From IMG/VR virus record IMGVR_UViG_3300006104_000092, positions 1 to 20,350 of that record: a stretch of 20,350 nucleotides of DNA, one strand, 5' to 3'. Positions 7 through 20,350 of this stretch are shown here, in pieces. Under the pieces are notes generated by a model, which was not told where the DNA came from, did not search any database, and saw only the letters and a list, made by a program, of their open reading frames with translations. Each line of letters starts with the position of its first letter. Position 1 is the first letter of the stretch. This DNA comes from a virus. The position numbers and the translations under genes were made by a program.

Positions 7-13
7 TGTCAAA
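7..13 (-). promoter_or_regulatory. TTTGACA start-associated motif (copy 1)
   Basis: Minus-strand TTTGACA follows directly on the TGA stop of the tail-terminator candidate. The gene it would precede lies outside the window, so its spacing to a start codon cannot be measured. Confidence 0.5.
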
Positions 14-418
14 TCACTCCGTCACACCCACCGAGGTCTCGATCTCGGCCACCCAGAGTTCCTTGCTCGTCGACATTTTCGTCCCCTTGATCCAGAGACC
101 GGCAAACGCCGGGACACCCGCATCGGTCGGCCACGCAGCCGAGAGCCCGTCCGGAGTGAGCGCCCCGTACACCGTGTCGAGCGTGTTTTGAAACCCGGTA
201 AGCGACGACGCCCCAAGCAACGCCGGGGCGGAGACTTTCACCAGGACATCGGCCAGAAAGATCCCGCCCACCTCGTGCGTGGTCTGGGTGCAGGCGACGA
301 TGAGGTTGAGGCTTTCCGGCGTCAGTTCCTCATAATCGGTGCCGAGGTAAATGGTCGTTCCGGAAAAGGAGGGAGCCAGCGCGGCCCGGAGGGCGGATTC
401 AATGCGGAGCGGGTTCAT
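14..418 (-). CDS. Putative tail terminator / minor tail protein
   Basis: A 134-residue protein that I do not recognise from motifs alone. Its place after capsid and head-closure genes, its length and its mixed alpha/beta look match the tail-terminator (lambda gpU-like) slot of siphovirus and myovirus head-tail modules, where the protein caps the tail tube and joins it to the head. The ATG at 418 sits 1 base past the stop of the upstream gene at 420, so translation is probably coupled; no Shine-Dalgarno is visible. The first five residues (MNPLR) are the same as in the upstream neighbour. The functional name comes from gene order only; that it is a real gene is well supported by the frame and tight packing. 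Confidence 0.6.
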   Translation of the reverse strand: MNPLRIESALRAALAPSFSGTTIYLGTDYEELTPESLNLIVACTQTTHEVGGIFLADVLVKVSAPALLGASSLTGFQNTLDTVYGALTPDGLSAAWPTDAGVPAFAGLWIKGTKMSTSKELWVAEIETSVGVTE

Positions 419-419
419 A

Positions 420-749
420 TCATTCGCGCACGGCCGTCACGGTCACCTCATGGCCATGCACGGGAGAACCGGCCAACGTGACCGCCGTCTCGACCCGGTA
501 GGTGACATTTTCGGAAACCAGCAGGATCTGTGCCCCGACGGACGGACGCGGCGCGGCCGCCAGGGGCCAGCGCAGCCGGATCGACCGGCGCGTGGAAAAT
601 CCGCCCATCTCGAGGTCAAGCGAAGGCTGCGGCATCGAGACGGCCGCCAGAAACTGGGCGCCGCCATTAATCGAAATCATCGTGCCAAACACGGTCTGAA
701 GGGCGGCGGCGGCCTTTTGCTGAAAGGCGGAGACTCGGAGCGGATTCAC
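420..749 (-). CDS. Putative head-closure / head-tail connector protein
   Basis: A 109-residue protein beginning with GTG. It follows the major capsid gene and precedes the tail-terminator candidate, which is the slot of head-completion proteins (lambda gpFII-like stoppers) that close the portal and take the tail. The C-terminal half is rich in beta-type residues ending HGHEVTVTAV, fitting a small beta-barrel connector, but no diagnostic motif is seen. The start is supported by an AGGAAG element about 10 bases upstream and a TTTGACA motif 13 bases upstream. The gene lies after a strong terminator behind the capsid gene, so it needs read-through or its own promoter. Function is inferred from position. 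Confidence 0.6.
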   Translation of the reverse strand: MNPLRVSAFQQKAAAALQTVFGTMISINGGAQFLAAVSMPQPSLDLEMGGFSTRRSIRLRWPLAAAPRPSVGAQILLVSENVTYRVETAVTLAGSPVHGHEVTVTAVRE

Positions 750-762
750 ACCAAGAGCTTCC

Positions 763-769
763 TGTCAAA
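763..769 (-). promoter_or_regulatory. TTTGACA start-associated motif (copy 2)
   Basis: TTTGACA lies 13 bases before the GTG at 749, downstream of the capsid terminator. There is no TATAAT-like box 16-18 bases further on, so it does not read as a normal sigma70 promoter. Confidence 0.55.
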
Positions 770-780
770 GTTCCTCCCCG

Positions 781-821
781 CAAAAGCAGAAGGCCGGTCC
801 CCCAGGAGAAGGGGACCGGCC
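781..821 (-). terminator. Rho-independent terminator after the capsid gene
   Basis: An 11-bp perfect stem (792-802 pairs with 811-821; arm GGCCGGTCCCC) with an 8-base loop is followed on the minus strand by the T-rich run TTCTGCTTTTG. It begins 22 bases after the capsid stop codon. It probably ends or attenuates a capsid-rich transcript and lowers expression of the connector and tail genes that follow. Confidence 0.8.
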
Positions 822-843
822 GGTTGCGGGACGCCCGGAGGAA

Positions 844-1764
844 TTAGGCGTTGATGATCTTGAGCGCGCTCGTGTCGGCGGCCGCGGCCCCGAAGAGGAC
901 GTCGAAGCTGGCCTGGAGGCTGCGGCTGGAGAGCGATCCCCAGACATTGAACTGGACCGAGAGACCCAGATCCGCGATGTCGATGGTCTCGCTCATCTGG
1001 AGCAGACCGGCGATGGCGGGATCCACATAGGGAATCGCGGAAGCCACGGCCATGGCCTCGGGAGAGACCGCGAAGCCCTTGATGGTCTTCGTGGTGCCGT
1101 TCAACTGTGCATCGCCGGCAATGCCGGTCTGCGCGGTTCCACCCCAGCGGTTGTTGTAGAAGATGCCGTCGAATCCGTAGGCCCCCTTGGTCTGGATGTC
1201 CAGGGAGTATCCGGTCGCGGGCAGGAGGTAGCTGTAGTAGCTGCCATCCAGCACGAGGTACCGCTCGGTACCGTCTTTCAGAGCGGACCAAAGGGTCGGG
1301 AGGGCGGCCGTGATGAGGCTGTTGCCGATGTTGCCACCGGTGGCCGTCGTGATCGCCGAGGAATAAGCGGAAGCACCAAAGGTCGAGGTGCTGATCGGCG
1401 CAAACGAGGCGTCCAGAATGGCATTGGCCAGCGCTCGAAGGTTGGCTTTCATCAGCTTCTCGAGGCGGAACCCCTGGTTGAGCTGCTGCGAGGAAAGGCC
1501 GAACTGAGCCGAGTAATGCGTCATCGTGACGGCGGTCGAGTTGACCGTCTGACCCTGAGCTTCAAACGAGGTCGGGCTGGAGACGGCGGAGGCGGCGTTG
1601 GCCACGACTCCGACCTGGAGTTTGCGAAGACCGGCACCGGAAACGACGTCCTTGCTGAAATCGGTGGTGAAGGTCTTGACGGGGGCGAGCCGGTTCTGGA
1701 GAACGGTGATCGCCGTGCTGGTCGCGGTATCCACGACCAAACTGGAACTGAACGTGTTGGACAT
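844..1764 (-). CDS. Major capsid protein (HK97-fold type)
   Basis: A 306-residue protein in the position of the major head protein, directly after portal and protease-scaffold. Composition is typical of phage coat proteins: rich in Ala, Ser, Thr and Gly, no long charged tail, and long mixed alpha/beta stretches such as TERYLVLDGSYYSYLLPATG. Many copies would form the icosahedral shell and interact with the scaffold encoded just upstream. The ATG at 1764 is preceded by a C/A-rich, SD-free leader of about 24 bases and lacks the TTTGACA motif found before most other late genes. A strong terminator follows. The capsid call is strong from context; the exact family was not checked. Confidence 0.82.
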   Translation of the reverse strand: MSNTFSSSLVVDTATSTAITVLQNRLAPVKTFTTDFSKDVVSGAGLRKLQVGVVANAASAVSSPTSFEAQGQTVNSTAVTMTHYSAQFGLSSQQLNQGFRLEKLMKANLRALANAILDASFAPISTSTFGASAYSSAITTATGGNIGNSLITAALPTLWSALKDGTERYLVLDGSYYSYLLPATGYSLDIQTKGAYGFDGIFYNNRWGGTAQTGIAGDAQLNGTTKTIKGFAVSPEAMAVASAIPYVDPAIAGLLQMSETIDIADLGLSVQFNVWGSLSSRSLQASFDVLFGAAAADTSALKIINA

Positions 1765-1788
1765 GACGGGTGTTGGGTTTGGTTGGTG

Positions 1789-2331
1789 TTACTTTCGCGA
1801 CCGGCCGTTCGCGGCCTCGAAGAGGGCGGAGCGGTTGGCGTTGAAAAAGGCGAGGCGCTCGGGGCTGCCTTTCGGCAGGGCCTCGTACTGCTCGACGAGC
1901 GTCGAGGCAGGGGTGGAGTCCTCGATCTCGGCGAGGACCTCGGAAGGAGCCAGACCCAACGCGCGCTTGGCGGCCAGGTGCACTTTCTGAAGCTTGGAAA
2001 GCTCGGCATCCTTGGCGGCGAGTTCCGTGCGCAGCGCCGAAAGCTCGGTCCGGACGGCGGCAAGCTCGGTCTTGTTGGACGCAAATTCGCTATGGATGGC
2101 GGAAAGCTTGGTCTCGACCACTTCCGGAGTGGCTTCCTCGGCGACCTCGGCTTCAGCATTTTCTTCCACGGTTCCTTCGGCGGAAGCCGAACCGACCGGT
2201 TCGGACACCTCGGTGACCACGGCCGCGGAAGGTTCCGGGGAAATGACGGTTTCGATCAAAGGAGGCGCGGCCTCCTCGACGGCTTCCGGAAGGATCTGTC
2301 CCTCCGGCAGGGATGTGGTGGGTTCGCTCAT
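1789..2331 (-). CDS. Possible nested scaffold protein from internal start
   Basis: The in-frame ATG at 2331, residue 191 of the protease-scaffold, begins MSEPTTSLPEGQ, which resembles a natural N-terminus, and would give a 180-residue acidic coiled-coil protein. Lambda and related phages make scaffold Nu3 from inside gene C in this way. No good Shine-Dalgarno is visible before this ATG, so the call is tentative. Confidence 0.35.
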   Translation of the reverse strand: MSEPTTSLPEGQILPEAVEEAAPPLIETVISPEPSAAVVTEVSEPVGSASAEGTVEENAEAEVAEEATPEVVETKLSAIHSEFASNKTELAAVRTELSALRTELAAKDAELSKLQKVHLAAKRALGLAPSEVLAEIEDSTPASTLVEQYEALPKGSPERLAFFNANRSALFEAANGRSRK

Positions 2332-2901
2332 GGAAGCTTGGAAAAGCGCGGCATTCGTGGCGGGGGACTTGACCAGGTCGGCGCCGAAAAGTTGTCCCGG
2401 AACGATGCGGGCGGCATAGGCCACGATGTCGTTCCCCACGACGGAGGAATCCGGAACGTCGTTTTCGCCGATCTCGGCATCCTCATCCCCCTGATCCTCG
2501 GCGTCGAAGACGGGATCGGGCTCGTTGGCAAAACTGATGGAGAGGCCGAAATTGCTCGGCATCGTCTCGGCCATCTCGCAGATCGTTCCGAAAGCCTCGT
2601 GGCTTTTGAGCAGATAGAGGTCGCCGCGGACCTGGTCGCCGTCGCGGCGGACGTCGCGAACCGATCCGACGAGATCGCTGATGCCGGTGCCGTGGTCGAA
2701 ATTCACCGGAATGCCGTCCTGAAACGAGGTTCCCTCGGTGACGACCTGGTCGAGCGTTTCGTCGTCGACGATGAGCGGCTGCCCCATGACGGTGTGCCCC
2801 TTGGCCGGTCCCTTCGAAATGATCGAGACATTCCGCAGGACGCCGTTGTCGCGGTCCACATTGGACCCGGAGGCGGCGGCAAAAAGGACAAGCTTGCTCA
2901 T
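1789..2901 (-). CDS. Prohead protease with C-terminal scaffold domain
   Basis: A 370-residue fusion. The N-terminal part (about 1-185) looks like a herpes-assemblin-type prohead protease: NFDHG with His70 and GLSIS with Ser121 are candidate catalytic residues in the usual His-then-Ser order. The C-terminal part (about 191-350) is acidic and then strongly heptad-like from about 285 to 335 (repeats such as ELAAVRTELSALRTELAAKD), as in scaffolding proteins. It would assemble the capsid and then digest the scaffold. The start is the ATG at 2901 (MSKLVLFAAAS); a longer in-frame reading to 3003 runs into the portal gene and looks artificial. An in-frame ATG at 2331 (MSEPTT) could yield the scaffold alone. 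Confidence 0.8.
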   Translation of the reverse strand: MSKLVLFAAASGSNVDRDNGVLRNVSIISKGPAKGHTVMGQPLIVDDETLDQVVTEGTSFQDGIPVNFDHGTGISDLVGSVRDVRRDGDQVRGDLYLLKSHEAFGTICEMAETMPSNFGLSISFANEPDPVFDAEDQGDEDAEIGENDVPDSSVVGNDIVAYAARIVPGQLFGADLVKSPATNAALFQASMSEPTTSLPEGQILPEAVEEAAPPLIETVISPEPSAAVVTEVSEPVGSASAEGTVEENAEAEVAEEATPEVVETKLSAIHSEFASNKTELAAVRTELSALRTELAAKDAELSKLQKVHLAAKRALGLAPSEVLAEIEDSTPASTLVEQYEALPKGSPERLAFFNANRSALFEAANGRSRK

Positions 2902-2918
2902 TTGAGAATTCCCCGGGG

Positions 2919-2925
2919 TGTCAAA
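2919..2925 (-). promoter_or_regulatory. TTTGACA start-associated motif (copy 3)
   Basis: It sits 4 bases after the portal stop and 17 bases before the protease ATG at 2901, in a 28-base gap. A GGGGAA stretch lies closer to the start and may help ribosome binding. Confidence 0.55.
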
Positions 2926-2929
2926 TCCC

Positions 2930-4513
2930 TCACGCCGATTTCTTGCGCCCGGACGCCGCCGAAGGTTTTTCGTCCGCGTCCTCGGATTCCTCCGATTCCT
3001 CATCCTCTGGAGGCTCTCCCTCGTACATGGCGCCCGACGCGATCGGCGTGCCAGGCGCGGGCGGGAACACCTCGGAAACCGTCAGCGCGACGCCTTCTTC
3101 CTTACCGATGCGTTCGACCAGTTTCTTACGACGGGCCGCGAAGCGGACGATATCCTCCTCCTGGCGGTCGGCATCGAGTCCCTGCAACGCGAAGTAGCGC
3201 TGCGGACTGATCTGACCGCGCAGCATGAGGTCGCTCAGGAGGCGACCATCCCTCGAAAAATCGACCGAAAGGTCGGCCGGAGGGCAGAAATCGACACGGA
3301 ACCAATCTTCGCCGTTCCCCGGCATGGGCAGGCGGCCCGCCTCGATCTCGTTCCAGACCCAGAATTTCCAAAACGGTTCCGCAAAACTGTGACGGATGAT
3401 ATCCTGAATCTCACGGATGAAGGCCTGGGCCTCGACGAGGATCCAGCGCTGGTTCGCACCACCGGCGTCTGTGGAATCGAAGAGGAACTGCTTCGACGTT
3501 CCGAAACCGACGGCGATGTCCTGCTGGAGGAACTCGATGAAACTTTTGAAGTTCGCCGAGGGGTGGAGGTTGTTGAAACTGGTCAGTTTTTCGCCTGGCT
3601 TCAGCTGCGGGATCACCGAGCCGTTCATCATGGCGTCCACCGTGATGTCGCTTGCGGAACTGGTGGACTGACCTCGGACCAGTTGCGATCCGAACCCAAC
3701 CTGCCCGGCCTCGGGGCTCTCGATGACAAAAGCCATCGAGGCGCCGAGCTTGGCGCTCATTTTCTCATAGCCGACGATCTCGCTGATGTCCTGAAGGTGA
3801 TTGGCCGCGCGGGCCAGCCATGACGGGGCGCGCGTGTGGCCGAGACGGTAGGCCTTGCGGACCTGCGTGAGGTCGTTGGCCGAGACATCAGTGTAGTCCA
3901 GCTGGGCGGCCGGAGACTTCAGGACGCGGTATTTCAGCGGGCGCCCGTATTTGTTCACCAGGACGCCGTCGCGGAACCCGTCCTTTTCATCCCCCAGGAC
4001 GCTCCCAACATTTTCCCCGGGGATCAGGCGGAACATCCCGCGGCCGCTGTTGCTCGTGATCCGCTGCCAAAAGACATCGCCCGCGATGGCCATCTGCCGG
4101 ACGAGCAGGGTCTGGGCCTGATAGAAATTCACGGCGGCCCCGGCATCGACGCCCGGAGCCCAACTGACGGCGGCATGGAACGACTGCTCGGCCATCATGT
4201 TCCAATCGGGATCGGACGTCCGAGCCTGCGGAATGAGAGGGCCGACGAGGCGGGCCACCTTGTCGACGGCGCCTCCTGCCGTCCCCAGATTATTCACCAA
4301 CCACCAGGCCTTGCGGATCAATTCCTCCCGGGTTCCCTGCGAGAATTCCTTGGAAGCGTCGAGCGTCGGCGTGTAGATCCAGGCGCGCTGCGGATTGAAC
4401 CTCCAGGCGCCCTCATAGGCTGCAAAATTGGTCGGTTCGGAGGATTTCCTGGGACGGCCCGCTCCGGGACGAGCCCCGCCGCGTTTTGATTTTTTCGGAA
4501 GAGGTGCGCTCAC
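2930..4513 (-). CDS. Portal protein (lambda-type, Phage_portal_2-like)
   Basis: A 527-residue portal protein, the dodecameric ring at the capsid vertex through which DNA is packaged. Length, position between terminase and protease, and the N-terminal stretch with REELIRKAWWLVNNLGTAGGAVDK fit the lambda gpB family. The start is GTG at 4513; upstream in frame a stop is met before any other start. Residues 9-24 carry the basic, glycine-rich sequence KRGGARPGAGRPRK, a motif common at N-termini of phage DNA-binding proteins and unexpected in a portal. The C-terminus is acidic (EDEESEESEDADEK) and ends in a Lys-rich tail. No Shine-Dalgarno is seen; a TTTGACA motif lies 14 bases upstream. Confidence 0.88.
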   Translation of the reverse strand: MSAPLPKKSKRGGARPGAGRPRKSSEPTNFAAYEGAWRFNPQRAWIYTPTLDASKEFSQGTREELIRKAWWLVNNLGTAGGAVDKVARLVGPLIPQARTSDPDWNMMAEQSFHAAVSWAPGVDAGAAVNFYQAQTLLVRQMAIAGDVFWQRITSNSGRGMFRLIPGENVGSVLGDEKDGFRDGVLVNKYGRPLKYRVLKSPAAQLDYTDVSANDLTQVRKAYRLGHTRAPSWLARAANHLQDISEIVGYEKMSAKLGASMAFVIESPEAGQVGFGSQLVRGQSTSSASDITVDAMMNGSVIPQLKPGEKLTSFNNLHPSANFKSFIEFLQQDIAVGFGTSKQFLFDSTDAGGANQRWILVEAQAFIREIQDIIRHSFAEPFWKFWVWNEIEAGRLPMPGNGEDWFRVDFCPPADLSVDFSRDGRLLSDLMLRGQISPQRYFALQGLDADRQEEDIVRFAARRKKLVERIGKEEGVALTVSEVFPPAPGTPIASGAMYEGEPPEDEESEESEDADEKPSAASGRKKSA

Positions 4514-4527: not shown

Positions 4528-4534
4528 TGTCAAA
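4528..4534 (-). promoter_or_regulatory. TTTGACA start-associated motif (copy 4)
   Basis: It is 14 bases before the portal GTG at 4513. The bases between contain CCTCCT, the opposite of a Shine-Dalgarno, so this start lacks the classical signal. Confidence 0.55.
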
Positions 4535-4556: not shown

Positions 4557-4883
4557 TCAGGTCGTGCTCCAGGTCCTCGAGAAATCGGGACGAGTGCACA
4601 ACTGGCGCGATGGCATGGATCCGTCGGAGGCCACCGGGTAGACATTCAGATCTTTCAGAACGCCTTCCACGGCCGTGAGGAGAAGCCATTTCGGGAAACT
4701 GACCTGGCCGGTGACGATGGCTCCATCGCTCGAGGTGCTGGTGATGACGACCTCGTCGGTCGATGCCATGAACGTGGAATCGGCCAGAGCCTTTAACTCG
4801 GCGACGCTTTTGTTCCGCCGCAGGTAGCTTTTCAGACCGTCGATCTTGTGAAGGTCGGGCGTCGTGGAGGATCCGAAGGCCAT
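4557..4883 (-). CDS. Small head-tail joining candidate (gpW position)
   Basis: A 108-residue protein between large terminase and portal, the place occupied in lambda by gpW, a head-tail joining protein. The N-terminal half has helical character (LKSYLRRNKSVAELKALADS), the middle is beta-rich (DEVVITSTSSDGAIVTGQVSF), and a second helix follows (WLLLTAVEGVLKDL). It is longer than lambda gpW (68 residues). Starts at ATG 4883, 22 bases after the terminase stop, with a TTTGACA motif 13 bases upstream and no clear Shine-Dalgarno. The identification is positional. Confidence 0.6.
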   Translation of the reverse strand: MAFGSSTTPDLHKIDGLKSYLRRNKSVAELKALADSTFMASTDEVVITSTSSDGAIVTGQVSFPKWLLLTAVEGVLKDLNVYPVASDGSMPSRQLCTRPDFSRTWSTT

Positions 4884-4896: not shown

Positions 4897-4903
4897 TGTC
4901 AAA
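4897..4903 (-). promoter_or_regulatory. TTTGACA start-associated motif (copy 5)
   Basis: It starts 2 bases after the TerL stop and ends 13 bases before the ATG at 4883, nearly filling the 22-base gap. Confidence 0.55.
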
Positions 4904-4905
4904 GG

Positions 4906-6666
4906 TCAAGACGGGATTTTCAATTCCTCCCGAAGGATGGCCCAAGCGACGGCATGAAGCTTCGTGCAGTCGCCGTAGTGATCGTTTTCCACTTCCTTGA
5001 ACCGAAAAGGATGGATGCGTGAGGCGCGATTTTCGATGAGGGCCTGACCCGAGTGACCGGCAAGGAACTCCCTGGAGGCATCGGCCGGGAAATGGAGGAG
5101 CGGCGGGAGGCGCTTGGCGATGCGGTCCAAGTAAGTGTGGGATTTCCAGACAAAGTCAGAATAGCTGAAGAGCGTGGTGGAAAATCCCTGGACGGGGCTG
5201 CTGTTGAACGTGCGAAACCCGGAATCGGTGCCTTTCGAAGGGAAAAGCACTCCCCCGGAGCGGCTGCAGAGACTATACACCCGCTCGGCGCTCCAGCCCG
5301 AATCGACGAGGCCCGCCGCCAGCTGGACGCTCGATCCGTCCGGCAGAACGTAAATGCGCGCGCGGAGAAACTCCTCCGAGACGAGATCGTCCATTTCCTC
5401 GAGGACGCCGTAATCGATGACCCAGGATTCCCCCGTGAGCGCGCGGGCCTCGACGGTCCAGTGAGTGCGCGAGCGGGTGGCCGATCCGGGATCGGCGCAC
5501 AGTGTGAGGATCGGCGGGCGGCCATCGACGATGGCCTCCGGAGGGATCTGGCGGGTCAGGTAGGATCCGCGCAATTCGAGGACATTCTCTTCCTCGACGG
5601 TCGCGGCCCGCGGCGTGAAAGGCAATCCGAGGTAGGTGTTGTAGAAATCATGGAGGCCGCCCGGCGTTTTCCGTTTTTGCAAAAACAGGACGGCCAAATC
5701 TCCCCAGGAAAGGGTGGGGGAATACAAAGCCGAGACGTGTGCGCTGCGATGGTCGGCCGGGGCCGCAGGATTCCCAGAAATCCACCGGTCGGAGGCGGCT
5801 GCTTCCGCAATCAAAGCCCGCTTGGTATCCTGATCCCAGGGACTGCCGCATTGCTCGCAATGGTAGACGGTGGCTTCCCGGACTCCGTCGAGATCCCACG
5901 CGCCCGAATCATCCCGGAGGTCGTAGCTCCAGTTTAACTGTTCAAAACGAAGCCATTGCTCATGACGGCAATCGGGGCAGGACACATGGAGGCGGTGACG
6001 GGATCCGGCCAGAAACTGCGTCCAAATGGCGCCGGTTTCCACCGTGGGTGTGCTGACCAGGACGGTTTTACTGATGTTACGAAACTGAATGGTCCGAGCC
6101 ATGGCAAGCTCGAGGGCCGGAGCCTCCGTGGCGGTGGAATCGGGCCACTTTGAAACTTCGTCGCACAGAAGGATGCGAATCGGACGCGACGCGATGGCGG
6201 AAACGGACTGAGCACCGACGAGTTTCACGACCGATCCCTTGAACTGCATTTCCGTCTTTTTGAACTGATCAGGATCGTCCGGCATGAGGGGCCGGATGGC
6301 CGAACACGAACGAATCCTCGGAATGAGTTCGCGCTCGCTCCAGGACTTGGCATTTTCCGCCGTCGAGGTGACGTAGAGGATCGGACCGGGGTCGGCCGCG
6401 ACCGAATACTGGATAAGATTTGCCAGCAGCGTGGTGCCGCCGACCTGGGCGCTTTTCACAAACGTGATCTGGCGGACGGATCGGTCGCCATACCATTCAT
6501 GGAGCTTCTTGAGGTAGGGAGTGAATTCGAAGGAAAACCGACCAGGGCGCGGCGAGAATCGAGGATCGAGACTGATGTGATCCTCGCACCATTCGACAGG
6601 GGTTTTCCGGGCCACCGGCTTCCAAAGGCCCCGAAAGTCGTTTTTTAGCTCTTCAAGCTGCGTCAT
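4906..6666 (-). CDS. terL: Terminase large subunit, GpA type
   Basis: A 586-residue packaging ATPase and nuclease of the lambda GpA family, which cuts concatemeric DNA and pumps it into the prohead through the portal. Visible marks: a Walker A-like segment KSAQVGGTTLL (about 71-81), Walker B ILLCDE (about 165-170), two CxxC pairs (Cys230/233 and Cys270/273) forming the zinc ribbon typical of GpA proteins, and a nuclease region starting near LCADPGSA. The ATG at 6666 overlaps the small-subunit gene by 14 bases and has AGGGGG upstream, so the two are co-translated. GpA-type terminases usually belong to cos phages, which bears on the non-coding region upstream. Confidence 0.95.
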   Translation of the reverse strand: MTQLEELKNDFRGLWKPVARKTPVEWCEDHISLDPRFSPRPGRFSFEFTPYLKKLHEWYGDRSVRQITFVKSAQVGGTTLLANLIQYSVAADPGPILYVTSTAENAKSWSERELIPRIRSCSAIRPLMPDDPDQFKKTEMQFKGSVVKLVGAQSVSAIASRPIRILLCDEVSKWPDSTATEAPALELAMARTIQFRNISKTVLVSTPTVETGAIWTQFLAGSRHRLHVSCPDCRHEQWLRFEQLNWSYDLRDDSGAWDLDGVREATVYHCEQCGSPWDQDTKRALIAEAAASDRWISGNPAAPADHRSAHVSALYSPTLSWGDLAVLFLQKRKTPGGLHDFYNTYLGLPFTPRAATVEEENVLELRGSYLTRQIPPEAIVDGRPPILTLCADPGSATRSRTHWTVEARALTGESWVIDYGVLEEMDDLVSEEFLRARIYVLPDGSSVQLAAGLVDSGWSAERVYSLCSRSGGVLFPSKGTDSGFRTFNSSPVQGFSTTLFSYSDFVWKSHTYLDRIAKRLPPLLHFPADASREFLAGHSGQALIENRASRIHPFRFKEVENDHYGDCTKLHAVAWAILREELKIPS

Positions 6667-7261
6667 GCCCCGCCCCCTTGTGGGATGATGGAGCCGCCGA
6701 CCAGGGCGCGGCGTGGTCGCTTTCCGAAAGTTCGCGAAGGATGACCTCGACTTCCCGGCGCACGATTTCTATCACCTCGGGCCCCGGAATCTGCGCCGCG
6801 AGGACTTCGGGAAGGTTTTCCAGTTGCTGCCGCGCTAGGGCAAGATTGCCCGTGATAAAGGCCCGAACCTCCTCGACCGGAACAAGCTTGTGCGTCGTCT
6901 CGGCCAGCCGGGCGTTGTTTTCGCGGATCGTCGTGAGGATTTTGTGACAATCGACGGCGACTTTGTTGAGGTTCAAAATCACACCGAAATCCCCGCGAGC
7001 CACCGCCTGATCGGCCAGTGCGCTCATCCTGGCATACCGCGCCGCCGAGGATTGTTCCTCCTGTTCCGGCGTCATCGTTTCCACCGGGGTCGGAATAAAA
7101 TTCATCTGAGCCGCGACCGCGGCCTCGCGACTCCTGTTTTCGAGATAAGCTTGCCAGCGGGGATCGGCGTTTCTTCTCCAGATCTGCACCGCCCGGACGG
7201 AAATGCCGTATTTTTCGGCGCAATCGCGGATGGCAGCGGAATCTGTTCGCGAACTTCTCAT
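6653..7261 (-). CDS. terS: Terminase small subunit
   Basis: A 202-residue protein with an N-terminal helix-turn-helix (about residues 8-32, IRDCAEKYGISVRAVQIWRR) followed by helical, charged sequence, as in gpNu1-like small terminases that recognise the packaging site and load the large subunit. It lies directly before and overlaps terL. The start is the ATG at 7261: going upstream in frame a stop is reached at 7289-7291 with no other start. A TTTGACA motif lies 25 bases upstream, the longest spacing of the set. Its DNA targets are likely in the dyad- and repeat-rich gap just upstream (7294-7742). Confidence 0.85.
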   Translation of the reverse strand: MRSSRTDSAAIRDCAEKYGISVRAVQIWRRNADPRWQAYLENRSREAAVAAQMNFIPTPVETMTPEQEEQSSAARYARMSALADQAVARGDFGVILNLNKVAVDCHKILTTIRENNARLAETTHKLVPVEEVRAFITGNLALARQQLENLPEVLAAQIPGPEVIEIVRREVEVILRELSESDHAAPWSAAPSSHKGAGHDAA

Positions 7262-7328
7262 GAAAAGCTTTTTCGTTTGGCGAAACTGTCAAACGAATCA
7301 TCCGCGAACAGGCGAAATCGACTGTTCG
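7245..7328. repeat. Cluster of dyads at the terS start
   Basis: Three inverted repeats are visible: GTTCGCGAAC (7245-7254), CGTTTG with CAAACG (7274-7279 and 7290-7295), and CGAACAG with CTGTTCG (7305-7311 and 7322-7328, 10-base spacer). Placed beside terS, they are candidates for terminase or cos recognition, or for a late operator. Confidence 0.4.
7287..7293 (-). promoter_or_regulatory. TTTGACA start-associated motif (copy 6)
   Basis: It is 25 bases before the terS ATG at 7261 and lies within a CGTTTG/CAAACG dyad. It is at the head of the packaging and head gene block. Confidence 0.5.
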
Positions 7329-7742: not shown

Positions 7743-7787
7743 AAAAAAAAATCCCCCTGCGATTGGATAATTCCGCACGCAGAGGGA
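7743..7787 (-). terminator. Rho-independent terminator after the helicase gene
   Basis: A 10-position stem with one mismatch (7752-7761, TCCCCCTGCG, with 7778-7787, CGCAGAGGGA) is followed on the minus strand by nine T residues (7751-7743) and more T beyond. It lies 21 bases after the helicase stop and closes the replication operon. Confidence 0.85.
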
Positions 7788-9871: not shown

Positions 9872-10405
9872 TCATTCCTTCACGAGGATCTTTGTCTCCG
9901 GATCGTAGCCGGGCCCCTGGAGCGTCAGTTTCCCGGCGCGGAAGATCGGCACAGGGATCCGCGAGATCCGGCGCAGCTGCCGCAGCAGTTCGCGGAACTG
10001 ATGCGACGTCAGCACAGCCTCCGCCTGCATCTTGTTCATCGAATCGGGGCGATACTCATAGGCCACCGCACTCGTCCCGTCGGGATTGGAGCGCGAGACC
10101 TTCACCATCTTCACCGTCCGGAGAGACTTCTCGGCATAAGTGCGAAAGCACGCCGGGGTGAGGGGAGACATCCGGTCCGTCTTCGGCTCCAGGACGACCG
10201 GCTCCCCGTCCTGCAGGAAAACCCCGTTCGTGCACAGGATCGCCCCCATGTCGCGGGCAAAATCGGCCAGCACGCGCCCCACACGCGGCAGCTCCACCTG
10301 CGGATAGATTGGCTCCTCGGGCCGCTTCGCCGGATCCGAGGACTTCTCGGGTGCGGGCGGCAGGGGCGCGTCCTCGGACGAGCCCAGCATTGGTTCATCA
10401 TTCAT
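9872..10405 (-). CDS. Helicase N-terminal domain protein (split from the ATPase)
   Basis: A 177-residue protein from the ATG at 10405. It has an acidic, Pro-rich N-terminus, then VELPRVGRVLADFARDMG..L...GVFL and ends with RIPVPIFRAGKLTLQGPGYDPETKILVKE. As far as I remember, this is the usual N-terminal domain of phage and verrucomicrobial helicase proteins that continue directly into a P-loop ATPase. Here the chain stops after GYD and the ATPase resumes about 960 bases further on. Start choice is uncertain: a TTG at 10429 gives 8 more residues, and neither has a Shine-Dalgarno. The TTGACA motif precedes the ATG by 18 bases. Confidence 0.7.
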   Translation of the reverse strand: MNDEPMLGSSEDAPLPPAPEKSSDPAKRPEEPIYPQVELPRVGRVLADFARDMGAILCTNGVFLQDGEPVVLEPKTDRMSPLTPACFRTYAEKSLRTVKMVKVSRSNPDGTSAVAYEYRPDSMNKMQAEAVLTSHQFRELLRQLRRISRIPVPIFRAGKLTLQGPGYDPETKILVKE

Positions 10406-10423: not shown

Positions 10424-10429
10424 TGTCAA
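10424..10429 (-). promoter_or_regulatory. TTGACA start-associated motif (copy 7, six bases)
   Basis: The motif here reads CTTGACA, so only the six-base core is kept. It starts 2 bases after the primase stop and lies 18 bases before the ATG at 10405. It is the only copy inside the replication module. Confidence 0.45.
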
Positions 10430-10431
10430 GT

Positions 10432-12354: not shown

Positions 12355-12710
12355 TCCGCCTCCTCCTCATCATTGACCAAATATTCAGAACCCCTTTCAA
12401 AAACGGTTTCTGGAAATAGTAGGGATAGGAAAATCTGGAGAAATTCACTGTGCCCCAATTTAAAAAGCAGAGAGTCAGGAAAAGTTAAATATGTTTTTCC
12501 TGAAATTCTAATTGCTCGCGCAGTAACTTCTTCTACTGAAACTACAACCCCCAATCTCTCATCGACAATTTGCTGGTTAGACGCAATTAACCATGGGATA
12601 AAATCAGAACAACTGGTTGTCTCGTTATTAGGGAAGAAAACATTAAATGAGTGAATCAGATCTGGTGTAGAGCATAAGCTCTTTAATTGTTTAAGAAATA
12701 AAGGACTCAT
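12351..12710 (-). CDS. Hypothetical early protein, AT-rich
   Basis: 119 residues from the ATG at 12710 (GGGAGGAGG upstream, ATGA overlap with the 12707-13183 gene). A longer reading to 12797 overlaps that gene and is rejected. Leu/Phe-rich with an acidic tail ending NDEEEAE. Codon use is much more AT-rich than both the upstream and the primase genes, which suggests separate acquisition. No family recognised. Confidence 0.65.
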   Translation of the reverse strand: MSPLFLKQLKSLCSTPDLIHSFNVFFPNNETTSCSDFIPWLIASNQQIVDERLGVVVSVEEVTARAIRISGKTYLTFPDSLLFKLGHSEFLQIFLSLLFPETVFERGSEYLVNDEEEAE

Positions 12711-13183
12711 TTCGCCTCCTCCCCTAGCAGGTGATCGTAAAACTCGACCATCGGTCGCAGCAGTTCGCAGGCCTTCTTGCGGTCCGCGCTCGTCCATTTA
12801 TCGACCGCGACCTTGCGACGCCAGAGATCAAAGGACTGCCTTATCCCCTCGATGGTCACGATGGCCGTTCCCTTGCCGAGGCCCTCATTCAGCTTCGGCT
12901 TATCCTCCTCCGGAGGGAGGCCCAGCGCCAGCACCAGCTGATCGTCGATCTGCTTCTCCGTGTCTTCGACGAATTCCTCGCCATATTCCTTTTCACCGTA
13001 CTCGCGCCAGTGCCGCATCCAAATGGACGAACACTTCTTGGCCATCTTGATCCGGTAGCCGACCTCGAAGTATTCCTGACCCGACATGACCTCCGGAAGC
13101 ACCAGCCCATCGGGCCGGAAATAGCCCGCAGGCGTCAGATCGGTGGGGGACACTTCTCCCTCCTGTTGAATTTCCAATGTCAT
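12707..13183 (-). CDS. Hypothetical early protein, charged helical
   Basis: 158 residues from the ATG at 13183, chosen because GGAGGAG lies 7 bases upstream; the longer frame to 13531 is a shadow of the HTH gene. Charged and helical (WMRHWREYGEKEYGEEFVED, about 55-74), with a C-terminal helix ending PMVEFYDHLLGEEAK. No family recognised; it lies after an HTH regulator and before the AT-rich small genes. Confidence 0.7.
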   Translation of the reverse strand: MTLEIQQEGEVSPTDLTPAGYFRPDGLVLPEVMSGQEYFEVGYRIKMAKKCSSIWMRHWREYGEKEYGEEFVEDTEKQIDDQLVLALGLPPEEDKPKLNEGLGKGTAIVTIEGIRQSFDLWRRKVAVDKWTSADRKKACELLRPMVEFYDHLLGEEAK

Positions 13184-13212: not shown

Positions 13213-13704
13213 TCAGGCCCGAGAACGGCGGTTGAGTTGGGCCTCGCGGAATGTCTCCCGGCTCTTCTCCGACTTTCGAAACTTCGTGACCGTCACCCCG
13301 AGAATGTCGGCGAATCCCACGACGTAGTGACTCACCAGGGCGCGGGTACAGTTCAGTTCCCGGGCGATCTCCGCCTGGGACTTCTTCCCGTTGAGTTGAT
13401 CGAGGCCCGCGGCAAAAGCCAGCGCGTGGACCATCACCGGCAGATTCTTCCCCTGAAGGAGGAACCCGATCACACGGCCGAACGCCTCCCGATGCTCCCC
13501 GGCGACCTTCTTGCACTCCTCCTGGTGCCATGCCAGCACCCGAAGCGCCTGCTGGGGCGTGATCCCGAGAAGATCGGCGAGGATCTCCTCCTCCCGATCG
13601 ATCTCCGCGGCCAAATCGGGCTCATAAGCCCCCTCGAGGGAATCGCCGACCCACGCACGGAAAGCGCCGTCAGGTGAAGCCGAGAGACCGTGATTCGGGA
13701 ACAT
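13213..13704 (-). CDS. HTH DNA-binding protein (early regulator)
   Basis: 163 residues with an internal helix-turn-helix of the KorB/ParB or sigma region 4 style: KSQAEIARELNCTRALVSHY (about 108-127), followed by a basic tail ending NRRSRA. The N-terminal half is acidic and helical (EIDREEEILADLLGITPQQA). The start is the ATG at 13704 with GGAGGTG upstream, overlapping the preceding stop by one base (TGATG). A longer frame to 13752 is less likely. It probably binds DNA to control early or late transcription or replication; whether it binds the 14824-14877 dyad is unknown. Confidence 0.7.
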   Translation of the reverse strand: MFPNHGLSASPDGAFRAWVGDSLEGAYEPDLAAEIDREEEILADLLGITPQQALRVLAWHQEECKKVAGEHREAFGRVIGFLLQGKNLPVMVHALAFAAGLDQLNGKKSQAEIARELNCTRALVSHYVVGFADILGVTVTKFRKSEKSRETFREAQLNRRSRA

Positions 13705-16250: not shown

Positions 16251-16504
16251 GGCCGGATCTGCCGGAAATGACGCACCGGATAGAGACGTTCGCCCGCGCG
16301 AATGACGAACTTTCGATCCTCGACAAGGCCGGAAGCCACGGCTTTCCGGAGGAAAACGCGCGTCATCGTCTCCGAGCGCCCCGTCAGCTGCGCAATGGTT
16401 TCAACGGTTTGGAATCCCTCGGGGACCTCATCGGTTTCCTTGCTCATCGTCTTGGCGATGATCGAGGCCCAATCATTTGCCGTGCTGGCGGGTTTCTTGG
16501 CCAT
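16247..16504 (-). CDS. Small winged-helix / HTH protein
   Basis: 85 residues from the ATG at 16504, two bases after the metallophosphoesterase stop. The middle is a MarR-like HTH: FQTVETIAQLTGRSETMTRVF then LRKAVASGLVEDRKFVIRAG with a short wing. An alternative ATG at 16525 adds 7 residues. It is likely a DNA-binding regulator. The ATGA overlap links it to the metallopeptidase gene, a pairing that recalls regulator/ImmA-type modules. Confidence 0.65.
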   Translation of the reverse strand: MAKKPASTANDWASIIAKTMSKETDEVPEGFQTVETIAQLTGRSETMTRVFLRKAVASGLVEDRKFVIRAGERLYPVRHFRQIRP

Positions 16505-16506
16505 GA

Positions 16507-17268
16507 TCAAAAGGGAAGTCGCCATCCGTGGTCCTGTTGCGAGTTCGGACCCGTGAAAAGCCAGGTCACCGAGGAAGGATTCTTCCCTTCGCGGAATTCC
16601 CCACAGACGATGGCTTGACCCCATGCCATCGTGGCACGTCGGTTCAGCGAATAGCCCATCGACCGCATCCTGGTCAGAGTGCCGACGCAGAATCCCTGCG
16701 ACCGGGAAAACGTCCTCCCGGGAGCATAAAACGGGCGGTGCGTGTGCGCATGGATGACCGTTCCTCCGTAGGCTTCGGCATAGTCCCGCGTGGCCGCTTC
16801 GGCATACCAGGTGCCGTGCAAGAATGTGATGTCCGCGCGCTGATACACCTGATTGATGCCATCATACGGAATCAATCGGCACCCGATCTTGCGGCAGCCC
16901 TCTTCGATGTGCTCGACCGCGCGGTGAGAGGCATACGCTATCACGGCATTCGGAGATTCGCGCAGGTGCCAGAGCCGCGCCTCGTGGTTCCCGGCAAGGA
17001 ACACATCGGGCCGCAATTCTCTGAGAAATTGCAATCCCCCATCGATATCCGGGGCGACCGGCTCCGCGCTGTCGGCATCGATCCCGCGGGCTCCGCTACG
17101 GAAGGCCGCCGTATCGACCGCATCCCCGAGATGCAGCGTCAGATCGCCGGAACGGATCCATTGCTTTTTCACTTCCAGGACGATCTTTTTTGCTTCCGCA
17201 TCGATGTGCTTTCCATGGGAACACCCGACCGCCAGAAAGCGCGTCCACCTGGAGGTCACCGAAGCCAT
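16507..17268 (-). CDS. Calcineurin-like metallophosphoesterase
   Basis: 253 residues with the set of metallophosphoesterase motifs in order: GCSHG (15-19), LGDAVD (47-52), AGNHEAR (92-98), a single His in LHGTWY (His151), and HAHTHRP (173-179). The first motif normally is DxHG; here the Asp is Cys16. The second half of the last motif is AHTH instead of GHTH. The ATG at 17268 overlaps the dNMP kinase stop by one base. It probably cleaves phosphate esters in nucleotides or nucleic acids, in line with its kinase neighbour. Confidence 0.8.
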   Translation of the reverse strand: MASVTSRWTRFLAVGCSHGKHIDAEAKKIVLEVKKQWIRSGDLTLHLGDAVDTAAFRSGARGIDADSAEPVAPDIDGGLQFLRELRPDVFLAGNHEARLWHLRESPNAVIAYASHRAVEHIEEGCRKIGCRLIPYDGINQVYQRADITFLHGTWYAEAATRDYAEAYGGTVIHAHTHRPFYAPGRTFSRSQGFCVGTLTRMRSMGYSLNRRATMAWGQAIVCGEFREGKNPSSVTWLFTGPNSQQDHGWRLPF

Positions 17269-17807
17269 CACGCGATTCCCCAAACGTTCTTTTCCAGTTC
17301 GCCGATTGACCCCGTGTTGTCGATCACGACATCCACAGGGAAATCCTGCTGTTCCGAAGCATGGGACTCGACGGCCTCGACGGGGCGTTCGATGCGGACA
17401 ATCAGCGCGCCCAGGGCTTTGAGGGCTTCGGCTTCGTCGGGGAAGCGGAGGTCATCGACCACGACGTCGATGCCGGAATCCAGCAGTTGCTTGGCTTTGC
17501 GGAGGAGAATCCTGCGCCAAAAATCCTGCGCCATCCGTTCACGCCCCCATTCCGTTCCGAGGGTCTGCATGGCATAGCGAGGGGAATGCCCGGCAAGAGC
17601 GTCGTGCGGATCTTCCTTGAATTTCCCAACGATCATCTCTTTGGCCGTGAGCGGCCCGACGCCCGCCTCGGTCAGCAGGCAGAGGATCATCTTCTTGATC
17701 GGGGCCGCGTAGCTCAGCCGCGCATAGTGGTGCTTTCGGACAAGGAATTCGGCAGCGGTCGACTTGCCGCTGCCAGCAGATCCGCAGAGGGCGACGATCC
17801 GGGGCAT
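17268..17807 (-). CDS. Deoxynucleoside monophosphate kinase (T4 gp1-like)
   Basis: 179 residues. P-loop GSAGSGKST at 9-17, a characteristic LGTEWGRE block (about 83-90) and DDLRFPDEAEA (about 118-128), as in phage dNMP kinases that phosphorylate dNMPs to dNDPs to feed replication. Starts at ATG 17807 with a TTTGACA motif 13 bases upstream and no Shine-Dalgarno. Follows the endolysin gene by 37 bases. A dephospho-CoA kinase-type function is a less likely alternative. Confidence 0.8.
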   Translation of the reverse strand: MPRIVALCGSAGSGKSTAAEFLVRKHHYARLSYAAPIKKMILCLLTEAGVGPLTAKEMIVGKFKEDPHDALAGHSPRYAMQTLGTEWGRERMAQDFWRRILLRKAKQLLDSGIDVVVDDLRFPDEAEALKALGALIVRIERPVEAVESHASEQQDFPVDVVIDNTGSIGELEKNVWGIA

Positions 17808-17820
17808 GACAGGGATCGCC

Positions 17821-17827
17821 TGTCAAA
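17821..17827 (-). promoter_or_regulatory. TTTGACA start-associated motif (copy 8)
   Basis: It ends 13 bases before the kinase ATG at 17807, within the 37-base gap after the endolysin gene. Confidence 0.55.
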
Positions 17828-17844
17828 AATCGTTTGTGACCCCG

Positions 17845-18408
17845 TTACGCCAAAAGGCTTTTGGCGACCGTGAGGCGGTTTTCCCATCCGGCCAAGAATT
17901 TAGCTTGGGAAGGGTGTTCCGCCACGAGGTCTTCGTAATGACGCCGGATCTTGGCAAGGAACGCCATGCAGAGCCCTGTCGTGTCATGGACGGCAAAGGC
18001 GGCTGACCGTGTCTGGTCCCCGAGCGCGCCATCGACCGCGATCCGCGCTCCGTAGTCGTTGCAGGCCAGTTGGAGGTATCGGATCGCGGTGGCAATGCCG
18101 ACATTGACCCCCTCAAAAAACACGATTTCTTGCACGAGGACCGGAAGCCCGGTCAGTTTTTCCCAATAGTTGGAAAAATAAACCCGTGCAACGGCATGCG
18201 GATCGGGCGATTCGGTCACTTCGCCATCTTTGAGCAAGAGTCCGGCAAACGTCGGGCCCCCCGAGTCTCCGGCGACATTTTCCCATTCGATCTGCCCCGT
18301 GACATGATTCAGTTCGCATTCCCAATCGAGCACCAGCTTTAGGGCGATCCGAAATCCGGCCGGGTAACCGTTGGCTAGGGCCGCCATGAGGATTTCGCTT
18401 TTCGTCAT
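17845..18408 (-). CDS. Endolysin, GH108-type N-acetylmuramidase
   Basis: 187 residues. The N-terminal domain has the GH108 pattern: a Glu in DWECE (Glu30) as the likely catalytic acid, then GDSGGPTFAGL (47-57), close to the family's 'DPGGxTxxGI', and YFSNYW (about 80-85). The C-terminal part resembles the associated peptidoglycan-binding domain (LQLACNDYG, then VDGALGDQTRSAA). It would cut cell-wall glycan strands at lysis and needs a holin, found at 19268-20329. There is no signal peptide. Starts at ATG 18408 behind a TTTGACA motif 19 bases upstream. Confidence 0.85.
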   Translation of the reverse strand: MTKSEILMAALANGYPAGFRIALKLVLDWECELNHVTGQIEWENVAGDSGGPTFAGLLLKDGEVTESPDPHAVARVYFSNYWEKLTGLPVLVQEIVFFEGVNVGIATAIRYLQLACNDYGARIAVDGALGDQTRSAAFAVHDTTGLCMAFLAKIRRHYEDLVAEHPSQAKFLAGWENRLTVAKSLLA

Positions 18409-18427
18409 GGTTTTTTAAAAAAGCGAT

Positions 18428-18434
18428 TGTCAAA
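18428..18434 (-). promoter_or_regulatory. TTTGACA start-associated motif (copy 9)
   Basis: It is 19 bases before the endolysin ATG, separated from it by an A/T palindrome (TTTTTTAAAAAA). Confidence 0.55.
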
Positions 18435-18465
18435 AATCTTTTTTTAAAATTTAAAAGGTTTTGTG

Positions 18466-18494
18466 TTGACAATATACGCAGGCCGCGCAATGAT
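18466..18494 (+). promoter_or_regulatory. Putative promoter for the plus-strand insert
   Basis: TTGACA (18466-18471), a 17-base spacer, then AATGAT (18489-18494) as a weak -10. It points at the 18562 gene with a leader of about 60 bases. I see only this TTGACA on the plus strand. Confidence 0.45.
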
Positions 18495-18561
18495 TCACGC
18501 AGATCGGAATGAATTCTGAACTCCCGCCGGAGGGAATCCGGAACAACGAAAAAACGACAAA

Positions 18562-19080
18562 ATGAAAATTGGAAACAGAGTAAAAATGACCTCCGAAAAC
18601 TCAAATTGGGTTGTTGGAGAAAACGGAACTATTACTGAAATTCTTGAAAAAGAAGGAAAAGTTGTAATTGCGTTTGACGGACGCGAAGACGATTACACCG
18701 TTTTTGTAAGTGATTTTAAAATTGAAATTCCACTTCCTATTGGAAAGCTCGTGTTCGTCCCAGAAGAAAAAACCACTGCAACCATATTAAATCATTTTAC
18801 AAGTTCAAATGGAGGATACGGTTATGAGTTAAAGTTTTCCGACGGAGAAGAAGGAAATTATTTAGCCAACGAAATTTCAGAAATTCCTCAACTTTTAAAA
18901 AGATTTCGTTTGTATTTGAATGGAAAATATTTTCATGGAGGATACGACTCTTTGGAAGAAGCAAAAACAGAGATTCCATTTATTGTTAAAGGATTTTCAA
19001 AAGAAGATATTTTGAAAATAAGTCCTTTAAAATGGAGTATTCAAGATATTGAAGAAAACGAAACAATCATAATTTCATGA
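18562..19080 (+). CDS. AT-rich cargo gene, SH3-like protein
   Basis: 172 residues, read against its neighbours. The first 50 residues suggest a small SH3/KOW-like beta barrel (VVGENGTITEILEKEGKVVI, then FDGREDDYTVFVSDFKI). A similar stretch (GYGYELKFSDGEEGNYLANE) may be a second one at about 87-106. Codon use is heavily AT-rich, unlike the flanking lysis genes. Its ATG at 18562 follows an A-rich leader without a close Shine-Dalgarno. Function unknown; possibly a host-takeover or defence cargo gene. Confidence 0.65.
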   Translation: MKIGNRVKMTSENSNWVVGENGTITEILEKEGKVVIAFDGREDDYTVFVSDFKIEIPLPIGKLVFVPEEKTTATILNHFTSSNGGYGYELKFSDGEEGNYLANEISEIPQLLKRFRLYLNGKYFHGGYDSLEEAKTEIPFIVKGFSKEDILKISPLKWSIQDIEENETIIIS

Positions 19081-19262
19081 CAGTTTTTTCTTCAAAAGGC
19101 GGACGGCCGCCAAAATCAGGCGCAGAAATTGCAGGAAGTCACCTTCACATGAGGGTGACTCGAGATCAAAAAGCTGCTTATGTTCGCGCGGCCGTGGCAG
19201 AGAAAAAAAAACTCTCAGAATGGGTCTGCACGCACCTGGATGCTGCCGTAAATAAAAAATAA
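19077..19262 (+). CDS. Small 'KGGRPPKSG' RHH-like protein
   Basis: 61 residues, ATGA overlap with the preceding plus-strand gene. The N-terminus SSKGGRPPKSGAE is an AT-hook-like basic segment; the remainder (HLHMRVTRDQKAAYVRAAVA, then KLSEWVCTHLDAAV) looks like a ribbon-helix-helix. It is probably a DNA-binding autoregulator of this small operon. Its stop is 5 bases from the convergent holin gene's stop, in an A/T-rich stretch (19250-19270) that may act as a bidirectional end. Confidence 0.6.
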   Translation: MTVFSSKGGRPPKSGAEIAGSHLHMRVTRDQKAAYVRAAVAEKKKLSEWVCTHLDAAVNKK

Positions 19263-19267
19263 ATTTT

Positions 19268-19537
19268 TTATGCCGTGGGCGAAGAGGGCGGGGGAGGCAG
19301 ATCTTTCGATTCGATCAGTTTCTGCCCGACCTTCCCGAGGCCGAGGGCCGTCACCAGCCAGACCAAAAATTCTTTCACGTTGCCAGGGATATCGTGGGTG
19401 GTGTCCCACGCTTTGATCACGACGGCGATGCAGATGCCGAGCGACACGAGGATCGAGAGGACGAAACAGAACCGCATGGCCGAGGCCAGCCCGTTGTCTT
19501 CCGCCAACAGTTCCTTGACCCAAGCGAGGAAGTTCAC
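19268..19537 (-). CDS. Holin-like membrane protein
   Basis: 89 residues from GTG 19537, a GTGA overlap with the previous gene; a TTG start at 19567 is less likely. Two hydrophobic stretches are seen: one strong (FCFVLSILVSLGICIAVVI, about 23-41) and one weaker and amphipathic (FLVWLVTALGLGKVGQKLIE). The end is PPPPSSPTA. Size and place in the lysis cassette suit a holin that permeabilises the membrane for the endolysin. Confidence 0.6.
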   Translation of the reverse strand: MNFLAWVKELLAEDNGLASAMRFCFVLSILVSLGICIAVVIKAWDTTHDIPGNVKEFLVWLVTALGLGKVGQKLIESKDLPPPPSSPTA

Positions 19538-19989
19538 GGGATCAGGTGGGCAAGCGAGGCCACGCAAGTGCGGCCCAGGGCATAGATCCCGGAAAACGTT
19601 CCCGCATAGACCAGCACCACGCAGATCACCGACCAGGGCATCGGAAATTCCCGCAAGATCATCCCGCTGATGAGCGTACCGAGATACAAAGCTCCGAGAA
19701 TGGCGATCCCGATCAGGAAAACATCCCGCTGGGCCGCATTGTCATGGGCCTGCTTGCGGAATTGTTCGGTCAGGATGGTCTGTTCCTTGAGCGCGGTGAT
19801 CGCGCCGTTGTAGTCGCTTTGTGCCTTGACCAGATCCAGCTTTTGCTGACGGCTCAGGGCCTCAATGTGTTCGACGGTGGCGAGGATGTCGGCCTTGGTG
19901 ACCTTGGACAGATCGGCCCCCATCATGTTCACAAAACCGCAAATCATGACCATGACCGGCAGAACGTGTTTAAGAAATCGACAGATCAT
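19534..19989 (-). CDS. Membrane protein with coiled coil, lysis-associated
   Basis: 151 residues from the ATG at 19989, overlapping the lipoprotein stop by 4 bases (ATGA); a GTG at 20007 is less likely. There is an N-terminal hydrophobic or signal segment (about 8-24), a charged helical region (VTKADILATVEHIEALSRQQ, then LVKAQSDYNGAITALKEQ), and two C-terminal membrane spans (LIGIAILGALYLGTLISGMI and WSVICVVLVYAGTFSGIYAL). It could be an i-spanin-like or holin-like component. Family not recognised. Confidence 0.55.
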   Translation of the reverse strand: MICRFLKHVLPVMVMICGFVNMMGADLSKVTKADILATVEHIEALSRQQKLDLVKAQSDYNGAITALKEQTILTEQFRKQAHDNAAQRDVFLIGIAILGALYLGTLISGMILREFPMPWSVICVVLVYAGTFSGIYALGRTCVASLAHLIP

Positions 19990-20150
19990 TTTCTTGAACG
20001 CAGCCACTGTTCAACCACGACGGCCTTCGCATCGATCCGGTCGGAAATCGCGGCGGCTTGGGTCAGGGATGCGTCTTTCTGCACGATTACCGGACGGGTG
20101 GCGCAGCCGGTGACCGCCACGAGCAAAAACAAGGAAATCAGCGTTTTCAT
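19986..20150 (-). CDS. Small lipoprotein, Rz1 / o-spanin-like
   Basis: 54 residues. MKTLISLFLLVAVTGCATRP is a signal peptide with lipobox VTGC (Cys16), followed by a short soluble part (QKDASLTQAAAISDRIDAK). The ATG at 20150 overlaps the previous stop by 4 bases; a longer frame to 20195 is a shadow of that gene. In phages this would be the outer-membrane spanin component, which implies a Gram-negative-type envelope. The partner may be the 19534-19989 protein. Confidence 0.65.
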   Translation of the reverse strand: MKTLISLFLLVAVTGCATRPVIVQKDASLTQAAAISDRIDAKAVVVEQWLRSRK

Positions 20151-20329
20151 AGCCACTTGCGAATTCCGGCGAAAATCGCCAAGGCCCCGGCGCAAAGGGA
20201 CACAAGAAGTGTCAGATTTTGCAACCAGATGTGCGGATGATCGAAGAAGGACAAAACCAGCGCCACGAGGGAGACCAGTGCCGAGACGGCCGAGGCTTGC
20301 ATATCAGTCGTCGGTGCGTGGTTGGACAT
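20147..20329 (-). CDS. Two-span membrane protein, holin candidate
   Basis: 60 residues with two hydrophobic stretches (VSALVSLVALVLSFF and LTLLVSLCAGALAIFAGI) joined by DHPHIWLQN, ending in a Lys/Trp tail (RKWL). Typical size and shape for a class II holin. Starts at ATG 20329. The TTTGACA motif lies just upstream at the window edge. Confidence 0.6.
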   Translation of the reverse strand: MSNHAPTTDMQASAVSALVSLVALVLSFFDHPHIWLQNLTLLVSLCAGALAIFAGIRKWL

Positions 20330-20345
20330 TTTGCAAAGGGTTCAA

Positions 20346-20350
20346 TGTCA
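20346..20350 (-). promoter_or_regulatory. TGACA, truncated start-associated motif (copy 10)
   Basis: The window ends inside this word; TGACA is 16 bases before the ATG at 20329, the same position as in the other copies. Whether it is preceded by TT cannot be seen. Confidence 0.45.

Follow-up and report, generated by a model that had tools for sequence, protein, structure and literature searches.

The viral record IMGVR_UViG_3300006104_000092, a stretch of 20,350 bases that we call the window, carries nearly all of its genes on the minus strand, and the heptamer TTTGACA stands in short gaps just ahead of a number of them. Our analysis suggests that this word is probably a late promoter element, from which transcription would begin on the start codon or right beside it, giving a leaderless mRNA. 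TTTGACA, with TTGACA as its core, would be the recognition element, lying at about −20 to −14 and acting as DNA, with RNA synthesis beginning 13–14 nucleotides (nt) past it. For most genes the transcript would then open with the A of the ATG or the G of the GTG, with a leader of 0–4 nt; a few, such as the capsid gene in some lineages, would have an A/C-rich leader of 30–50 nt. Since such a message begins at its start codon, the usual ribosome-docking sequence would not be needed. Each late gene or small group of genes would have a separate start, often right after a terminator, and would be transcribed by the host RNA polymerase together with a specificity factor of phage or host. The early genes would be translated from Shine-Dalgarno leaders.

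TTTGACA in the window and in related phages

A sequence-only reading of the window had drawn attention to the hexamer TTGACA, placed outside genes and shortly before minus-strand starts, and its list of copies is sound. All nine complete coordinates are correct and on the minus strand, every copy is intergenic, and the spacings from motif end to start codon run from 13 to 25 nt. One plus-strand copy was overlooked, and two of the sites taken for TTTGACA, those at 10424 and 20346, read CTTGACA; the other eight are perfect. The copies are as follows.

7..13, minus strand: TTTGACA; start codon 15 nt downstream, past the window edge (seen in the same-phage contig G067)
763..769, minus strand: TTTGACA; 13 nt to the GTG start at 749 of the post-capsid gene 420–749
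2919..2925, minus strand: TTTGACA; 17 nt to the ATG start at 2901 of gene 1789–2901, in the protease/scaffold position
4528..4534, minus strand: TTTGACA; 14 nt to the GTG start at 4513 of the portal gene (PF05136)
4897..4903, minus strand: TTTGACA; 13 nt to the ATG start at 4883 of gene 4557–4883, in the terminase–portal interval
7287..7293, minus strand: TTTGACA; 25 nt to the ATG start at 7261 of the terminase small subunit gene
10424..10430, minus strand: CTTGACA; 18 nt to the ATG at 10405; an imperfect copy in the early/replication operon, of uncertain role
17821..17827, minus strand: TTTGACA; 13 nt to the ATG start at 17807 of a deoxynucleotide monophosphate kinase-like gene
18428..18434, minus strand: TTTGACA; 19 nt to the ATG start at 18408 of the endolysin gene
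20345..20350, minus strand: truncated copy, CTTGACA in contig G067; 16 nt to the ATG start at 20329

The status of the copy at 10424 is uncertain because of its altered first letter and its location in the replication operon. The gene for the terminase large subunit (4906–6666) overlaps that of the small subunit and has no motif of its own. The number of hexamers is unremarkable, as had been said from the outset: 10 are present against 7.1 expected, and 20 of 100 shuffled sequences reach 10. The heptamer is another matter, with eight copies against 1.8 expected, a number reached in none of 100 shuffles. Each of the eight is a minus-strand copy in an intergenic gap that leads to a start on that strand, where only 1.7% of positions lie 13–25 nt before a start. 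The sole plus-strand TTGACA (18466–18471) has AATGAT 17 nt beyond it and lies ahead of the plus-strand gene 18562–19080; it looks like the ordinary sigma-70 promoter of an extra gene expressed in lysogeny.

The motif is found well beyond this phage. Relatives were collected using the terminase large subunit, giving 12 and then 80 viral loci at 54–100% identity. In these loci and the window together, the coding strand has 438 copies of TTTGACA and the opposite strand has two; of the 82 loci some overlap or are near-repeats, and the phage of the window is itself among them. Twenty records, mostly near-whole phage contigs, were annotated with our own gene finder, and there the split is 187 to 5; in nine further, diverged records it is 90 to 4, the terminase in this wider set falling to 26–34% identity with that of the window. 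Among all 7-mers located 8–35 nt before starts TTTGACA ranks first, with 126 occurrences against 4.5 expected. The sequence-only reading had named two results that would refute it, and neither was obtained: the word is not comparably frequent within genes, and related phages keep it in the same position. The conserved site is only about 7 bp, with flanks near background composition. A more distant record (G034) keeps the spacing but not the first T of the heptamer, and thus the core of the motif is TTGACA.

The genes that carry the motif form a class. The heptamer is usual before the genes of the terminase small subunit, the gpW-position protein, the portal and the protease, and before the post-capsid genes. 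It precedes none of the early-operon families, namely the helix-turn-helix family 9, families 4 and 16, the primase-like family 15 and the helicase-like family 1. Shine-Dalgarno-like words (GGAG, GAGG, AGGA or AAGG, 4–18 nt before the start) are present in 10 of 123 motif genes compared with 48 of 94 early-operon genes, so that the contrast first remarked upon in the window holds throughout the clade. GTG makes up 48% of the starts at a spacing of 13 nt, but 6% of other starts. Mycobacterial leaderless genes use GTG freely.

Two side observations concern the copies in relatives. In locus L048 (6857–7118) three TTTGACA words fall within 260 bases after the capsid gene, each near a terminator-like hairpin, in what looks like a duplicated terminator-plus-motif unit. 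In G003 (37.6 kb) one tail-region family is present in several copies among genes 00–04 and 36–43, several with their own TTTGACA.

Spacing, leaders and terminators

The distance from the motif to the start codon has a sharp lower edge. When the nearest called start is taken in 29 records, an offset of 13 nt is found 85 times, and offsets of 14, 15, 16 and 17 nt are found 17, 12, 13 and 7 times, respectively. There is none at 11 or 12 nt, and eight at 0–10 nt combined; above 17 nt there is a thin tail, to about 60 nt. Our gene caller misplaces some starts, and the spacing was therefore recounted without gene calls, using letter-permuted words as controls. An ATG or GTG opening at least 50 codons lies at an offset of 13–17 nt in 157 of 277 sites, compared with 11 of 220 controls, and such a long open reading frame starts exactly at 13 nt in 87 of 277 sites compared with 3 of 220. 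A start codon never precedes the start of transcription, and so RNA synthesis from base 14 would predict just such a one-sided edge. Among the sites spaced at 13 nt, 95% have a pyrimidine (C or T) at base 13, and base 14 is A or G; other genes of the same phages have C or T at −1 in 63%. These statistics fit a short word at a near-fixed distance from an inferred purine start.

Sites with no start codon nearby are also informative. In these an A/C-rich leader begins at base 14–15, of the form (G/A)..AACCC, for example GAACCCAACAACC and GTAACCCGCAACC. The capsid gene in some lineages and a tail gene provide typical examples, and the same word is found 33–60 nt before some genes, those with A/C leaders. 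The A/C-rich leader of the major capsid gene in the window (ACACCAACCAAACCCAACACCC; 1765–1790, minus strand) lacks the motif, whereas a capsid-gene leader of this type follows TTTGACA at 42–51 nt in some relatives.

The third element of the arrangement is the intrinsic terminator, of which the window has two of note.

784..821, minus strand: intrinsic terminator downstream of the major capsid gene, GGCCGGTCCCC...GGGGACCGGCC followed by TTCTGCTT
7744..7787, minus strand: hairpin closing the early operon, CCCTCTGCG...CGCAGGGGG then a T run, identified by eye

The first is directly upstream of the motif at 763, and relatives conserve one at the same place. The second was missed by our simple terminator scan by reason of its long loop; in relatives a scanned terminator is found at this boundary. 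The scan shows that 13 of 43 intergenic terminators have TTTGACA within 40 nt downstream, with a gap mostly of 7–22 nt, above all after the capsid gene. Strong terminators thus often abut the motif, so that another promoter could scarcely fit in between, and if they work then transcription must restart within a few bases before the next start codon.

Alternative explanations and a candidate recognising factor

The sequence-only reading had offered a late-gene signal that starts translation, directs mRNA processing, mediates antitermination or serves as a promoter of an unusual, phage-specific kind. The word is indeed a conserved late-gene signal, and of these options the promoter fits best, because of the lower edge at 13 nt, the A/C leaders that begin at the same offset and the terminators just upstream. 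Antitermination is without specific support. RNA cleavage is the main rival. Here one long late transcript would be cut by a nuclease that recognizes UUGACA and cleaves 13–14 nt downstream, generating leaderless or A/C-leader mRNAs. This accounts equally for the one-sided edge, for placement on the coding strand only and for the absence of Shine-Dalgarno sequences. We nevertheless think it unlikely, as the terminators that often abut the motif would require readthrough to supply the upstream RNA, and no nuclease gene was recognized among the early proteins scanned. A conserved RNA hairpin between motif and start was also sought and rejected; a stem is common only in the subset with GTG starts. 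A direct translation signal, whereby the word within the mRNA guides ribosomes to starts that lack a Shine-Dalgarno sequence, would explain why the word takes the place of the latter near starts. It fits poorly, because the word is also found at the larger distance of the A/C-leader genes, and the one-sided spacing, the terminators directly preceding the word and the high GC content of the interval up to the start, an obstacle to ribosomes if it were part of the mRNA, make it improbable.

Two further explanations retain the word as DNA. An ordinary sigma-70 promoter would have TTGACA, the consensus, as its −35 box and a −10 box 17 nt downstream, but a match of at least 4/6 to TATAAT 15–19 nt downstream is found in 5.9% of 372 sites compared with 7–9% of control windows, a 5/6 match is found in none, and transcription would start inside the gene. 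The spacing is unsuited to a −35/−10 promoter, as had been recognized at the outset, and the conventional promoter is refuted for the set of sites; it can hardly be the explanation, though single sites could double as −35 boxes. Stoperator sites of the L5 type contain TGTCAA. A prophage repressor binding the intergenic word to halt transcription, as in mycobacteriophage L5, would suit temperate phages such as these, where an integrase-like family (family 13) is present in 18 of 20 records, and the L5-type sites are similarly intergenic and oriented with transcription (PMC9283540). Yet about 7 bp are conserved rather than 13, the early operon that should be the target of the repressor is without sites, and a fixed distance of 13 nt to the start is not expected. 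We regard this as very improbable.

Several points weigh against the late promoter itself. The precise offset varies in about half of the sites. There is no −10 box downstream and no second promoter element, and the first 8 nt past the motif are GC-rich (0.70, compared with 0.57 upstream), which is odd for DNA that has to open. Pfam and PHROGs, applied to the proteins of the window and of the families, revealed neither an RNA polymerase gene nor a clear sigma gene. Lastly, sites within the clade are not independent of one another, and therefore the counts overstate the number of separate origins.

Two early proteins might be involved in recognition of the motif.

13213..13704, minus strand: early helix-turn-helix protein of family 9, conserved; candidate recogniser of the motif
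12707..13183, minus strand: early protein of family 4, co-conserved beside family 9; second candidate

The motif would be read by a phage or host specificity factor acting on the host RNA polymerase, and family 9 is the best candidate, though a tentative one that we hold well short of even confidence. Family 9 is present in 27 of 47 records, and 26 of these 27 carry TTTGACA-N13..17-RTG (where R is a purine). Of the 20 records without it, 16 have 0–2 scattered matches and the remaining four look like fragments of a motif-bearing lineage. However, G054 has family 9 but no motif sites, and structural genes and family 4 co-occur with family 9; its link with the motif may therefore be one of shared descent, and we reject family 9 as a proven recogniser. 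In G056 and G068 the sites are weak. The predicted fold of family 9 is all-helical (mean pLDDT, the predicted local distance difference test, of 74) with a helix-turn-helix at about residues 107–130. A Foldseek search of the PDB with this model gave nothing significant, the top matches being archaeal transcription factor B (TFB; E 0.16) and sigma factors (E about 0.9–1.2). At the sequence level a weak, non-significant match to Sigma70_r4 is found in a few members, and there are no matches to family 9 among 50,697 records of named phages. The predicted model of family 4 is helical. A fuller scheme is rather doubtful as a whole: a one-element promoter (TTGACA at −19 to −14, with no −10 box) might be read by family 9 as a small phage sigma- or TFB-like protein on the host polymerase, switching from early Shine-Dalgarno to late leaderless translation of the virion genes.

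The phages and comparison with known systems

The window covers part of the genome, of about 30 kb, of a phage of temperate type, and contains genes for the terminase large subunit (PF05876), a lambda-family portal, an endolysin and a deoxynucleotide kinase. Contig G067 (28,294 bases) is near-identical and from the same phage, and has one further perfect TTTGACA-N13-ATG beyond the window. Phages of the group are about 30–45 kb and temperate. One contig of 57.5 kb (G002; IMGVR_UViG_3300027746_000023) contains two related phages joined head to tail with the same orientation, which may be tandem prophages or an assembly join. By terminase and portal alike the closest named phage is Akkermansia phage Moulinsart, a kinship that hints at Verrucomicrobiota as host. 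Among bacterial genomes the sole match is in a Burkholderiaceae metagenome-assembled genome (MAG), one contig of which looks like a complete related phage (L013/G001, contig C1; 33.4 kb; VERI01000017.1); host genes are not evident on it, and it is probably a mis-binned free phage.

These relationships bear on where the motif came from. The phages may have adopted a signal of their host lineage, bacteria that themselves use TTTGACA-N13-start; this concerns origin and is compatible with the late promoter. Several diverged phage lineages have the motif in common, which speaks for this. Set against it, the motif is not found in Moulinsart, the one bacterial MAG with a related contig shows no evident enrichment (the contig itself probably being mis-binned), and these phages do without it in their early genes. 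Such an origin is conceivable, but we do not favour it.

The motif would provide a readable late-gene code for a large group of uncultured freshwater phages. The simple rule TTTGACA-N13-RTG would serve to fix start codons and to find late genes in metagenomes. If the element is indeed a promoter, its layout is not seen in textbook bacterial systems, and the early and late genes of one phage would initiate translation differently. We found no published description of a TTTGACA late motif in openly licensed papers.

Elements of the arrangement can be recognized elsewhere. The hexamer is identical to the −35 element of sigma-70 promoters, differing in the missing −10 box and in a distance to the inferred start of 13 nt rather than about 29. 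In mycobacterial leaderless promoters a −10 box precedes the start by about 7 nt, whereas here the sole word would lie at −20 to −14, with GC-rich DNA after it. The leaderless transcripts themselves are alike in that, as two reports describe, the message starts at ATG or GTG with no Shine-Dalgarno sequence (PMC4633059, PMC3898074). The stoperators of Cluster A phages, bound by the L5 repressor, also have many short, asymmetric, intergenic copies oriented with transcription in temperate phages, whose genomes likewise have a small helix-turn-helix protein; they are 13-bp sites that control early/lytic transcription (PMC9283540), in contrast to a word of about 7 bp confined to late genes at a fixed distance from their start codons.

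The closest parallel is with the late promoters of phiKZ and AR9, both giant phages. These promoters are TATG, with the G as start, and AACA-N6-TA/G, respectively (PMC5312081). The giant phages encode their own multi-subunit RNA polymerases, a type not found here by the same Pfam and PHROGs searches, and their words and spacings are different. AR9 leaders are 26–491 nt (PMC5312081). The layout would nevertheless be shared, that of one short word placed at a fixed distance upstream of the late start, before many late genes and in a non-sigma-70 arrangement (PMC5312081).

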